From a filamentous cyanobacterium CCP2 (lineage in GTDB: Bacteria; Cyanobacteriota; Cyanobacteriia; Elainellales; Elainellaceae), in NCBI GenBank assembly GCA_003003615.1, contig PVWD01000014.1, positions 1-46,236 on the forward strand: 46,236 nucleotides of DNA, given 5' to 3'. Position 1 is the stretch's first letter; each line of letters starts with the position of its first letter. The position numbers and the translations under genes are program-made. A model generated the notes under the pieces. That model saw only the letters and a list, made by a program, of their open reading frames with translations. It did not search any database and was not told the DNA's origin. This document shows, piece by piece, positions 1 through 40,517 of the stretch.

Positions 1-263
1 GGGTGAAGCAGGAAGCGGAAGCGGAAGGGTTAGACAAAATTTTTGAGGCGGCGGGTTTTGAGTGGCGCGAACCGGGTTGCTCCATGTGCCTTGCCATGAA
101 CCCCGACAAGCTGCAAGGTCGGCAAATCAGTGCTTCCTCTTCCAACCGCAACTTTAAAGGGCGGCAAGGTTCCTCCTCTGGACGAACTTTGTTGATGAGT
201 CCGGCAATGGTGGTGGCAGCGGCAATCACAGGGCAGGTTTCTGACGTGCGATCGTTGTTGTAG
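1..263 (+). CDS. leuC: 3-isopropylmalate dehydratase large subunit, C-terminal part (partial at window edge)
   Basis: The frame is already open at the first bases, so the gene begins upstream of the window and only about the last 87 codons are present. The fragment carries the [10 protein letters not shown] motif, whose two cysteines belong to the three that hold the 4Fe-4S cluster of the aconitase superfamily. It ends with the family's [12 protein letters not shown] and [14 protein letters not shown] segments. With LeuD it isomerises 2-isopropylmalate to 3-isopropylmalate in leucine synthesis. leuD lies 930 bp downstream on the same strand, which is unusual because the two are commonly adjacent; an antisense Uma2 gene fills the gap. 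The identification is from motif recognition and is secure. Confidence 0.95.
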
Positions 264-306
264 ACAGTGAGGAGTGAGGGAGTGAGGGAGTGGGGGGAAG
301 AGATGT

Positions 307-1071
307 TTAGTCGGGTGAAGTTCCGCTTGCTGAATTCTCTGCCAAGAGCGATCGGAGTCTTGCTAGTTCTGCTTCTGCCGCTTCTGCCCTTTGGCGTTCT
401 TGTTCAGCCCGTTGATGTTCCTGCTCGGCTTTTTCTGCACTCCAAAGCAGCAAATTTCCGGCTTCATCCCACCAGCGCAACCAATGAATCGTCCTTCCCA
501 AGCGTTTTCCATGCCAGATGCCCAAAAATAACCGCAATGCTGGAATCCAAAAACGTCCTTGCTCATTGGGGGATTGCAGGGCATATTGCTTTTCCTGAAG
601 CTGGCGGACTTCCAGTGTGAGGCTATGGGGGTCAAAGATGACGTAAGTTGGAACCTGAAGAATCTGCTCGTAAAAGTACAGCTTGCCATAGGGGTAAATT
701 GGACGGACGGAATATTCGCCGGTTTCGGTATCCGAGAGGAATTCCATCACAACTGCGATCGGGTCGCCTTCCAACTGGGGGGTGTAGTTGCGGCGAATTG
801 TTCCTTCAGGGATGGGAAACACGCGGGGTACGTACAGCCAGTCTGGTGCTTTTACAACAATCTGCTGGTTCACTGATGCCACCAGTCCAAAGTTGGAAGC
901 AATCAGCATTTCAGGTTGAATCAATCCGGCTTCTCCCAAAGCATCCGTTAGGGCAGCGGCGAGTAAGGGTTGCAGCAAATTTTCCACAGGATCATCCGGC
1001 AGTACAAAGTCATCGGGCAGCTTTTCCCAGGTAATGGTCAGGTGGGGCGATCGAGCGGTTTGAAATACCAC
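307..1071 (-). CDS. Uma2 family (DUF820) putative endonuclease with C-terminal coiled coil
   Basis: A 254-residue protein of the PD-(D/E)XK-like Uma2 family, which is strongly expanded in cyanobacteria; the cellular role is not established. The expected active-site pattern is visible: Asp77 in APDWLYVPRV, Glu110 in VVMEFLSD and Lys130 in YPYGKLYFYE, followed by the VPTYVIFDP strand. The last 45 or so residues are a Glu/Arg/Ala heptad-rich coiled coil (EKAEQEHQRAEQERQRAEAA), common in this family. It is encoded antisense between leuC and leuD, only 43 bp from the leuC stop, so it looks like an insertion into a leuCD unit. The family call is secure; nuclease activity is inference. Confidence 0.9.
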   Translation of the reverse strand: MVFQTARSPHLTITWEKLPDDFVLPDDPVENLLQPLLAAALTDALGEAGLIQPEMLIASNFGLVASVNQQIVVKAPDWLYVPRVFPIPEGTIRRNYTPQLEGDPIAVVMEFLSDTETGEYSVRPIYPYGKLYFYEQILQVPTYVIFDPHSLTLEVRQLQEKQYALQSPNEQGRFWIPALRLFLGIWHGKRLGRTIHWLRWWDEAGNLLLWSAEKAEQEHQRAEQERQRAEAAEAELARLRSLLAENSASGTSPD

Positions 1072-1193
1072 AGGTTTCCTTCCTTCAGGCGTGTCTGGGG
1101 AACTGCTTTCATCCTAATCGGATGCTACCAGCCTGATTTGTTCGGTCATACAGTTTTGCTATTTCGTATTATCCAAAAGGAGAATGAATCATC

Positions 1194-1796
1194 ATGAGTC
1201 AAGTTCAATCTGTTTCTGGTCGTGCCGTTCCCCTCGTGGGAAATGATATTGATACCGATCGCATTATTCCAGCGCGGTTTCTCAAGTGCGTTACGTTTGA
1301 TGGGTTAGGCTCTCACGCCTTTGAAGACGATCGGGCCCAATTTCAAGGAAACCATCCCTTTGATCAGTCCCAGTATCAGGGGGCAGAGGTGCTGGTGGTA
1401 AATCGTAATTTTGGTTGTGGGTCGTCGCGGGAACATGCACCGCAGGCAATTTCCAAGTGGGGAATTAAAGCCTTGGTGGGGGAAAGTTTTGCAGAAATTT
1501 TCTTTGGTAACTGCGTAGCAATGGGGATTCCTTGCGTTACGGCAGACCCAACAGATGTGCAAACCTTACAAAACTGGATCGCGGCTAACCCCCAAACCCC
1601 AGTAACGGTTGACTTGGAAACGCTGCAAGTCCGATTTGGTGAATCTGCAATTCCAGTGCAAATGAATGAAGGATCGCGCCAGATGTTTACAACTGGAACC
1701 TGGGATGCCTGCGGTCAACTGGTAGCCCAAGCAAATGCAATTCGCGAAACGGCGGCTCGTTTGCCCTACGTGAGTTGGAGTCAAGCAGCCAGTTAA
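1194..1796 (+). CDS. leuD: 3-isopropylmalate dehydratase small subunit
   Basis: A 200-residue protein of normal family length. The N-terminal half shows [14 protein letters not shown] (residues 16-29) and the substrate-loop motif [12 protein letters not shown] (72-83), followed by [14 protein letters not shown], all diagnostic of LeuD. It partners LeuC in the second step of leucine biosynthesis in the cytoplasm. The ATG is preceded by a good ribosome-binding site (AAAGGAG, 1175-1181). Because the antisense Uma2 gene separates it from leuC, leuD is either read through from leuC over about 0.9 kb or has its own promoter in 1072-1193. Confidence 0.97.
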
Positions 1797-1807: not shown

Positions 1808-1840
1808 TCAGCATCTTGCTTGGAGTGGGCAAGGTGCTGA
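1808..1840 (+). repeat. Stem-loop after leuD, GCATCTTGC-type repeat copy
   Basis: TCAGCATCTTGC (1808-1819) pairs with GCAAGGTGCTGA (1829-1840) over 12 positions with one G-U pair, around a 9-nt loop, 11 bp past the leuD stop. There is no T-run, so it is not a classical terminator. Its left arm AGCATCTTGCTTGG resembles the core of the other GGCA-TCT-TGCC elements at 12264, 15073, 22106 and 40498. Confidence 0.6.
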
Positions 1841-5870: not shown

Positions 5871-5926
5871 CAGGACTGACGCAGTTTCCTTGAGATCAAT
5901 TTCAGGCTAAAAGCGAAAACCCATTG
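5871..5926 (+). repeat. Dispersed repeat, copy 1 (56 bp)
   Basis: This stretch aligns with the reverse complement of 31572-31625 over its full length with a few substitutions and two single-base gaps. The central 26 bases, beginning CTTGAGATCAATTTC and ending GGCTAAAAGC, are identical. It starts 16 bp after the ArsR gene stop. No coding capacity is evident. Confidence 0.8.
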
Positions 5927-5940
5927 AAATGGGTTGTTTT
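5918..5940 (+). terminator. Intrinsic terminator of the ArsR-type gene
   Basis: AACCCAT (5918-5924) pairs with ATGGGTT (5929-5935) around TGAA, followed by GTTTT. The left arm is the end of the 56-bp dispersed repeat, so here the repeat contributes half of the hairpin. Confidence 0.6.
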
Positions 5941-6046
5941 GGGAATTTGAGTTCGTTTCAACGGTCTTGAGCGTTGAGCCGGAAGTTGATTTCCAAGTAC
6001 GAAGTGCGTAAGTCCTATTGATGCTCTTTGCCCTTGAATCCAAATT

Positions 6047-12263: not shown

Positions 12264-12293
12264 GGGGCAGGCACGATACCCACCCCACAAGAT
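12264..12293 (+). repeat. GGCA-TCT-TGCC-type stem-loop repeat, copy at 3' side of the beta-barrel gene
   Basis: This 29-30 bp stretch reads GGGGCAGGCACGATACCC followed by ACCCCACAAGA. It aligns with 22106-22134 (TGGGCGGGCAAGATGCCC then ACCCCACAAGA) and with the reverse complement of 15073-15100. The hairpin pairs survive partly through G-U wobbles. It lies 48-77 bp downstream of the beta-barrel gene stop. Confidence 0.65.
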
Positions 12294-12302
12294 ACTCAGT
12301 CT

Positions 12303-12341
12303 TCAGTTCTCCTCGCTCCTTACTCCTCGCTCCTCACTTCC
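12303..12341. repeat. CTCCT/CGCTCCT simple repeat
   Basis: A pyrimidine-rich run made of repeated CTCCTCGCTCCT-like units (TCTCCTCGCTCCTTACTCCT, then CGCTCCTCACTTCC) directly at the 3' end of the beta-barrel gene. Similar runs occur at 268-300, 28067-28093 and 44600-44650; they are typical slippage-prone spacers. Confidence 0.6.
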
Positions 12342-15072: not shown

Positions 15073-15111
15073 CTTGTGGGGTGGGCATTTTGCTCGCCCA
15101 ATTCTTTTTAT
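15073..15111 (+). terminator. GGCA-TCT-TGCC-type stem-loop repeat acting as terminator
   Basis: The 28 bases 15073-15100, read in reverse complement, match the 22106 repeat (TGGGCGAGCAAAATGCCC then ACCCCACAAG). On the plus strand, TGGGC and GCCCA can pair and are followed by ATTCTTTTTAT, so this copy can terminate the GH13 transcript. It lies between the convergent GH13 and ParA genes. Confidence 0.65.
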
Positions 15112-21996: not shown

Positions 21997-22105
21997 GAGA
22001 GTTTATTCAATGGTAAAAACAGCCTGCTTTGTCCACTCTGGGAGAGAGTTTCAGTCCATTGATGGGATTAAAAATTTAACCCAGTCACGATGCCCTTCCT
22101 CGGAC

Positions 22106-22134
22106 TGGGCGGGCAAGATGCCCACCCCACAAGA
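22106..22134 (+). repeat. GGCA-TCT-TGCC-type stem-loop repeat, reference copy
   Basis: The sequence TGGGCGGGCAAGATGCCC plus ACCCCACAAGA is the best-formed copy of the family. In reverse complement its core is GGGCA-TCT-TGCCC. It lies between two convergent genes (sugar transferase and fatty-acid-hydroxylase-like), 38 bp from the end of the latter. Confidence 0.75.
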
Positions 22135-22171
22135 CAATTGCGCTAACACAGTAAAATTTACAGTTCCAGCA

Positions 22172-22657
22172 TTACCACCAGCGTAATTGCAAATATCCTC
22201 GATCGGGTTGGTTTTGCTCTTCTTCTGTAATCCAATCTACCGGCTTGTACGTCCCAAAAACGTAATCCCACCAATCAACGCCCAGACCAAAGTTGTGGTG
22301 CCACATTCCATACTTGTGGTGGACGTAATGCACAGGCATCTTCATCCAGAAGCATTTTGTGGGGTTTTCATGCTGAAGCTGATGGGCATAGGCGGAGAAA
22401 GCGGCATAGGTTAAGGCACCCAGAAACCAGCCCACCCCAAGCTGCCAGGAAAACAAGAAGGGAAGACACATAATAATTAGGCTGCCCTTCACATAGTCCA
22501 GGAATTCCCACACTACGCCTTGCCCTTCGTTTCGACGATGATGATCACGGTGACGTTCGCCCACTTTCGGCGAGGCGTGCATTAATCGATGCATCCAATA
22601 TTCAACGAGGCTCGCAAGGATGAAGGCAGCAATAAAACTAACGATCGCAACCCACAT
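22172..22657 (-). CDS. Sterol desaturase/fatty acid hydroxylase family protein
   Basis: A 161-residue membrane di-iron protein. The histidine clusters are complete: HRLMH (23-27), HRDHH (36-40), HQLQH (92-96) and HYVHHKYGMWHH (110-121). These sit among hydrophobic segments at about 3-19 and 58-86. The layout matches the short hydroxylases of the fatty acid hydroxylase superfamily, which use non-haem iron and oxygen, such as carotenoid or lipid hydroxylases; the exact substrate is not readable. The gene is flanked by the reference copy of the stem-loop repeat and a 369-bp spacer. Cytoplasmic membrane. Confidence 0.9.
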   Translation of the reverse strand: MWVAIVSFIAAFILASLVEYWMHRLMHASPKVGERHRDHHRRNEGQGVVWEFLDYVKGSLIIMCLPFLFSWQLGVGWFLGALTYAAFSAYAHQLQHENPTKCFWMKMPVHYVHHKYGMWHHNFGLGVDWWDYVFGTYKPVDWITEEEQNQPDRGYLQLRWW

Positions 22658-40438: not shown

Positions 40439-40497
40439 AAATGCGAATCTAACGCGATGTGCAACTTAAAGCCTGAAATTCCTGATTTCCGTAGCGC

Positions 40498-40517
40498 AGG
40501 CATCTTGCCTGGCTAGT
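40498..40517. repeat. GGCA-TCT-TGCC-type stem-loop repeat, variant copy
   Basis: AGGCATCTTGCCTGGCTAGT matches the reverse complement of the 22106 copy (GGGCATCTTGCCCGCCCAGT). The stem changes from GGGCA/TGCCC to AGGCA/TGCCT as a paired change. It sits between the convergent tocopherol-cyclase and GT2 genes. Confidence 0.6.

Follow-up and report, generated by a model that had tools for sequence, protein, structure and literature searches.

Stem-loops dispersed downstream of genes in a filamentous cyanobacterium are very probably REPs of a RAYT transposase, many of them carried inside MITE-like frames

The small stem-loops that recur between genes of the filamentous cyanobacterium CCP2 are very probably REPs of the GTAG superfamily, substrates of a REP-associated tyrosine transposase (RAYT, or TnpA-REP) to whose activity we attribute their movement. 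We base this reading on their copy number, their extragenic location at the 3' side of genes, a GTRG foot, a TCT loop and strand-biased pairing, and also on a RAYT gene adjoining the repeat in nine genomes, co-change of stem and RAYT, and inverted pairs in a relative. The family exists, but what is already known of REPs and RAYTs accounts for most of it, and its most interesting part is the occurrence of REPs inside MITEs as composite elements. The original prediction, made from one contig stretch of 46,236 nucleotides (the window), had considered that no function was established for such elements, which misses both their identity as REPs with a cognate RAYT and the many copies riding inside MITEs.

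Five related stem-loops had been described in the window. Four of these sites fall into two related stem-loop families, A and B, and the fifth, at 1808, is unrelated to them (Table 1). Read foot first, the foot of family A (CTTGTGGGGTGGGCATCTTGCCCGCCCAGTC) is GTGG, its stem is 9 bp long and includes one conserved T.G wobble, and its loop is TCT; in family B (CGTAGCGCAGGCATCTTGCCTGC) the foot is GTAG, the stem is 7 bp long and the loop is again TCT. Three sites were said to have a body in common and this was borne out, with matches to GGGCAAGATGCCCACCCCACAAG at 22111-22133, 15073-15095 and 12269-12291 (0, 2 and 3 mismatches, respectively; 0 expected in shuffles). Folded as DNA, the REP at 22103..22133 has an energy of -9.5 kcal/mol (z -4.2) and the one at 40490..40512 an energy of -8.3 kcal/mol (z -3.2). 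The genes adjoining the window REPs are ordinary ones. The bare core GGCANNNTGCC was found three times in the window versus 1.3 expected, which is no notable excess, hence the case rests on full bodies and on the genome. A Rfam covariance-model search of the window gave no match, a relation to tRNA or tmRNA was sought in the window and none was found, and a literal sequence search of the literature returned unrelated matches only.

The stretch at 1808 was rejected as a family member, as it is without the foot, without the body and more than five mismatches from both A and B, and it folds into a different, longer hairpin, CAGCATCTTGC...GCAAGGTGCTG. This hairpin is strong (z -4.9), lies between an aconitase_C gene and a MIP gene, is without a T-tail and is not a REP.

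Table 1. Repeat elements and frames in the window, and the autonomous element found elsewhere in the same genome
Feature	Position	Strand	Sequence and structure	Basis	Neighbouring genes
Family A REP	22103..22133	-	CTTGTGGGGTGGGCATCTTGCCCGCCCAGTC; GTGG foot, 9-bp stem with one T.G wobble, TCT loop	exact consensus match	sugar transferase; fatty-acid hydroxylase
Family A REP	15073..15099	+	T-tail AATTCTTTTT	2 mismatches; fold	alpha-amylase; ParA-like ATPase
Family A REP, diverged	12264..12291	-	pyrimidine-rich tail TTTCCTTCTG	3 mismatches; fold	ffh (SRP54); outer-membrane-like protein
Family B REP	40490..40512	+	CGTAGCGCAGGCATCTTGCCTGG; GTAG foot, TCT loop	1 mismatch to B consensus	tocopherol cyclase; glycosyltransferase
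Non-member hairpin	1808..1840	+	CAGCATCTTGC...GCAAGGTGCTG	convergent spacer; own fold	
Degenerate F2-type frame, 117 bp, REP near centre	22056..22172	.	arm CCATTGATGGGATTAAAAATTTAACCC and weak opposite arm	one arm above the arm-similarity threshold (F2R); second arm and end point read by eye	
F4 left arm	40453..40489	+	GCGATGTGCAACTTAAAGCCTGAAATTCCTGATTTC	arm similarity, label F4bL	
Autonomous IS701-type element, 1,055 bp, 337-aa transposase	L272 (G000:C454:5500-6900) 225-1238	+	ends CAGGACTTACGCA		

Across the whole genome (6.95 Mb in 528 contigs) the 11-mer core GGCAAGATGCC has 407 copies versus 3 for its reversed control. Allowing up to two mismatches, there are about 311 copies of family A and about 211 of family B, with 0 for the reversed control in either case, and the genome does hold an excess of copies. 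Paired changes in the stem, the other sign of a structured family that had been put forward, were examined in 68 distinct A copies from three genomes. Double changes in stem pairs filled 22 cells compared with 8.1 in shuffles, and none of 1000 shuffles reached 22. Of these double changes 17 are one G-C to A-T switch, which may have arisen once and been inherited, and independent events are fewer than 22. On the REP (foot) strand 566 of 612 cells in the A stems are paired versus 474 of 612 on the complement, a bias partly due to the conserved T.G wobble; with this wobble left aside, the stems contain 47 G.T pairs against 13 A.C mismatches. Strand-biased pairing is compatible with one strand being recognised as a hairpin, and by itself does not separate DNA from RNA. 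Selection on structure, for which the stems had been taken as an argument, is real, but a function of the RNA explains it less well than a partner transposase does.

Gene context was assessed in 806 kb of contigs using a simple codon-usage gene caller. Some of these contigs were known carriers of the core, which inflates density and should leave orientation and context unaffected. Of the 40 A copies, 16 lay in spacers between convergent genes, 22 in unidirectional spacers and 2 between divergent genes; none was inside a gene. Convergent spacers, which make up 14% of intergenic bases, are thus over-represented (binomial p 6e-5), divergent spacers (35% of intergenic bases; p 2e-5) and genes (73% coding; p 3e-23) are under-represented, and a single B copy of 38 was located within a gene. 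Distances below 100 bp separate A copies from 32 of 54 neighbouring 3' ends and from 1 of 26 neighbouring 5' ends. The location claimed for the window sites, just downstream of genes and mostly in convergent spacers, is the right one (22106, 15073, 40498 and 1808 are convergent, 12264 lies between two minus-strand genes), and copies are not scattered within genes.

A chance origin, or a compositional artefact of a G+C-rich core, could draw on the bare core not being in excess within the window, but the genome counts (407 versus 3 for the 11-mer, hundreds versus 0 for full bodies) have already refuted it and it is barely conceivable. The hairpins could also be transcription terminators or mRNA 3'-end stabilisers, maintained by selection on RNA structure. 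The strong 3'-proximal and convergent bias, the G-T-tolerant pairing on one strand and the individual T-tails at 15073 and 12264 all speak for this, and the T-tail that led the 15073 copy to be proposed as a terminator is indeed there. As a property of the family, however, termination does not hold up: T-rich tails accompany 5 of the 44 A copies and 1 of the 38 B copies versus 8.6% of random intergenic places, neither orientation relative to the upstream gene prevails (12:10 in family A, 10:11 in family B), and REPs in general are reported to have the same bias in location (PMC3733652). Terminators or stabilisers would also leave the RAYT linkage and the co-divergence of stem and RAYT, both set out below, unexplained, and we consider this explanation very unlikely.

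Linkage to RAYT genes was found in the genome itself (96.9% complete), where three Y1 transposase genes are linked to families A, A and C. The gene on contig C366 is a REP-associated tyrosine transposase (NCBIfam NF047646, 101.7 bits, cut-off 80) and has three A-like repeats in the roughly 110 bp downstream of it, the last of them an exact A. This gene runs off the contig end, and the second, on C445, is a decayed RAYT with a stop and an A copy 40 bp downstream, hence an intact A-linked enzyme was not seen in the own genome. The third gene, on C464 (L072/L121; NF047646, 175.9 bits), has its own REP, GTAGGGTGGGCAATGCCCACC (family C), on both sides, and gene and flanking repeats make up a second, separate complete REPtron. 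None of the three Y1 genes in this 96.9% complete genome is flanked by family B, which meets REP sequence features only.

In other genomes the same arrangement recurs. A Leptolyngbyaceae genome, SL_7_1 (G014, named by sequence), encodes an orthologue with 75% identity (NF047646, 100.9 bits, cut-off 80) and A on both sides, inverted. Seven further orthologues (G108, G162, G062, G137, G114, G068 and G135) are 67-69% identical and have an exact A 15-32 bp beyond the aligned gene end, with an inverted A upstream too in six of the seven. A RAYT with adjoining family A is thus present in the own genome and eight others. RAYT paralogues are accompanied by REPs with other stems and the same type of foot and TCT loop (for example GTAGTGGGAGCATCTTGCTCCC, GTGGAACAGCCTTCTAGGCTGT and GTGGGATGGGCCTCTGGCC). 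Over 17 genes, RAYT protein distance is correlated with REP distance (Spearman 0.69, 0 of 2000 permutations), with one REP per gene, usually the nearest, picked by hand.

Similar words had been said to be frequent in other cyanobacteria, and family A is indeed present in 37 of the 292 genomes sampled throughout the phylum, among them most of one large family. It is concentrated in family f21, likely the Nostocaceae judging by named matches, and in f24 and f1, and is missing from f2 and f40, small-genome families in the sample. In the window's own family, four genera have 311, 127, 88 and 85 A copies and the others have 10 or fewer. Copies in G014 often form REPINs, inverted pairs with a spacing of 35-42 bp, those in G023 are solo, and most in the window's genome are single. 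In G007 (127 A copies) there was no match to the family A RAYT at E 0.001, and G023 (88 A copies) has a distant RAYT match only, with other repeats around it, so A copies can persist or spread without a close RAYT. Some A copies in G007 (L177-L185) have an insert, GTGTTCGCGAAGCGTGTCCGTAGGACATGG, between the REPIN halves, which looks like another nested small repeat.

Many REPs in the window's genome are placed close to the middle of imperfect palindromes some 90-120 bp long, of which we recognised five frames (F1-F5). Both frame arms were found for 14 of the 44 A copies, for 24 of the 38 B copies and for 8 of the 14 C copies. REP C is present in 20 of the 21 copies of F5, a 91-bp MITE with a target duplication of 5 bp (87% identity, 14 of 21 perfect, above all shuffles). 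The autonomous IS701-type element on C454 has the same ends as F5 and a target duplication, TTCAA, of the same length. F3 contains B in all 30 sampled copies, its arms have about 87 matches genome-wide, and its target duplications of 8-9 bp are likewise above all shuffles. A or B can occupy the same place in F2, and A or another REP-like hairpin the same place in F1; in two F1 frames (L046 11506-11580 and 15216-15290) a GTACGGGTTTGGCATTGCCAAACC-type hairpin takes the place of A and is possibly a fourth REP family. Full F4 frames hold B and an inverted A. Among the flanks as listed, some F4 copies have repeats of 8-10 bp and F1 has none obvious. At two window REPs remains of such frames are visible (Table 1), and the 117 bp around the REP at 22103 is the modal length of F2 frames. 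Target duplications and residence in MITEs indicate that spread was partly hitch-hiking, especially as regards the copy number of B.

The frames were first found via the REPs. In a repeat-family search of REP-masked intergenic DNA, F1-F5 came out among the principal families once tandem and CRISPR-like ones are set aside, and a REP-independent palindrome search by exact seeds was too strict and was discarded (15 candidates). Further families in the masked search were heptamer-repeat, CRISPR-like and one of 12 segments. The heptamer family is the largest in the masked DNA, and heptamer-like runs (GGAGTAAGGAGCGAGGAG, CCCCACTCCCCACTC) lie beside some REPs, such as at about 12292-12340 of the window and at L040 17743. 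The CRISPR-like repeat, CGTTCGATATAACCCTTTCCCCGCAAGGGGACGGAAAC, is seen at L093 6365 and has 34 segments in the sample. Two F5-like ends, GACTTACGCA...GCGTCAGTC, span 141 bp at 5874-6014 of the window without REP C, and may be another MITE or chance.

Our results are largely in line with what is known of these systems. Di Nocera et al. 2013 (PMC3733652) describe the GTAG superfamily as having a GTAG or GTRG foot, a stem of 7-9 bp and a loop of 2-3 nt, as lying in convergent or unidirectional spacers and as RAYT-linked; they report it from filamentous cyanobacteria, and its cyanobacterial families include GTAG-12, -15 and -16. Families A and B have the foot, the short-loop palindrome and the extragenic 3' placement in common with the superfamily, and A has the RAYT linkage as well. 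Family A differs in being mostly GTGG rather than GTAG, a variant that the paper reports for one family, and many copies here are inside MITEs, unlike the GTAG REPs it describes. REPINs are hairpin-forming inverted pairs of REPs, RAYT-linked, with Nostoc punctiforme among the genomes of that work (Bertels and Rainey 2011, PMC3116915); in contrast, the window's genome has mostly single REPs, many in MITE frames, and clean REPINs were seen in G014. The motifs of the own RAYT (DHVH, WQ, YIRQNP) fit the signature of TnpA-REP subclass 2.7 ([ND]HVH, WQ, YI[LR][NQ]NP), known from cyanobacteria and few other phyla (PMC6006769), an assignment by motif only, and some orthologues deviate from it (for example G014 with YIQQNP). 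F5 is like IS701-partnered MITEs in its terminal repeats CAGGACTTACGCA, its 5-bp duplication and its 1,055-bp autonomous partner, and unlike them in having a REP hairpin at its centre.

The frames raise the question of whether the units are simply MITEs, with the central hairpin a passenger unlinked to any RAYT. The share of copies with both arms, the target duplications of two frames and the constant presence of B in F3 would all be expected from this. On the other hand, one and the same hairpin is found solo as well as in several frames that are not related to each other, adjoins RAYT genes across families and forms REPINs. Such an account can hold where family B has spread recently, but it does not explain how the family arose, and as a whole it is unlikely. 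In Nostoc punctiforme and relatives, Elhai et al. in 2008 reportedly described small dispersed repeats (SDR) of 21-27 nt with compensatory changes, some of them inside minitransposons. The present families could be such SDR, possibly spread by an RNA route: size, structure, compensatory changes and embedding in minitransposons are alike, and family A occurs in the same clade (Nostoc and relatives). The likeness is one of general description, family A with its RAYT linkage needs no RNA route, and the question is more one of naming than of mechanism; we regard this identification as rather doubtful.

REPs moved by a RAYT remain the preferred reading, and the following course of events is consistent with it. 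RAYTs are HUH-Y1 single-strand nucleases, and the E. coli enzyme binds the GTAG foot and hairpin as single-stranded DNA, cleaves it and rejoins it (PMC6006769). By analogy, the cyanobacterial RAYT would bind foot and hairpin as single-stranded DNA, cut and rejoin, and may thereby have brought REPs, or inverted pairs of REPs, into the DNA between genes. Later spread in the window's genome would have been partly passive, with REPs, above all B, copied as the core of MITEs that were presumably moved by ordinary DDE transposases. Selection may have removed copies that damaged genes or promoters and so left those 3' of genes, in which case no host function is needed.

Several MITE families that are unrelated to one another (F1-F5, and another in Nostoc) have REPs at their centre, and one frame can have differing REPs in the same position, which might tentatively be explained in either of two ways: RAYT single-strand transposition targets the hairpin tips of MITEs, or the REP core helps its MITE. 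We hold this only as a possibility, and if true, two transposition systems of different chemistry would be spreading one composite element. The REP-inside-MITE composites are a concrete case of one unit common to two mobile systems. A RAYT clade in which stems switch and foot and TCT loop stay constant offers matched pairs for testing RAYT specificity. The conspicuous hairpins 3' of genes in filamentous cyanobacteria are very probably REPs with a named transposase lineage, not unknown regulatory RNAs.
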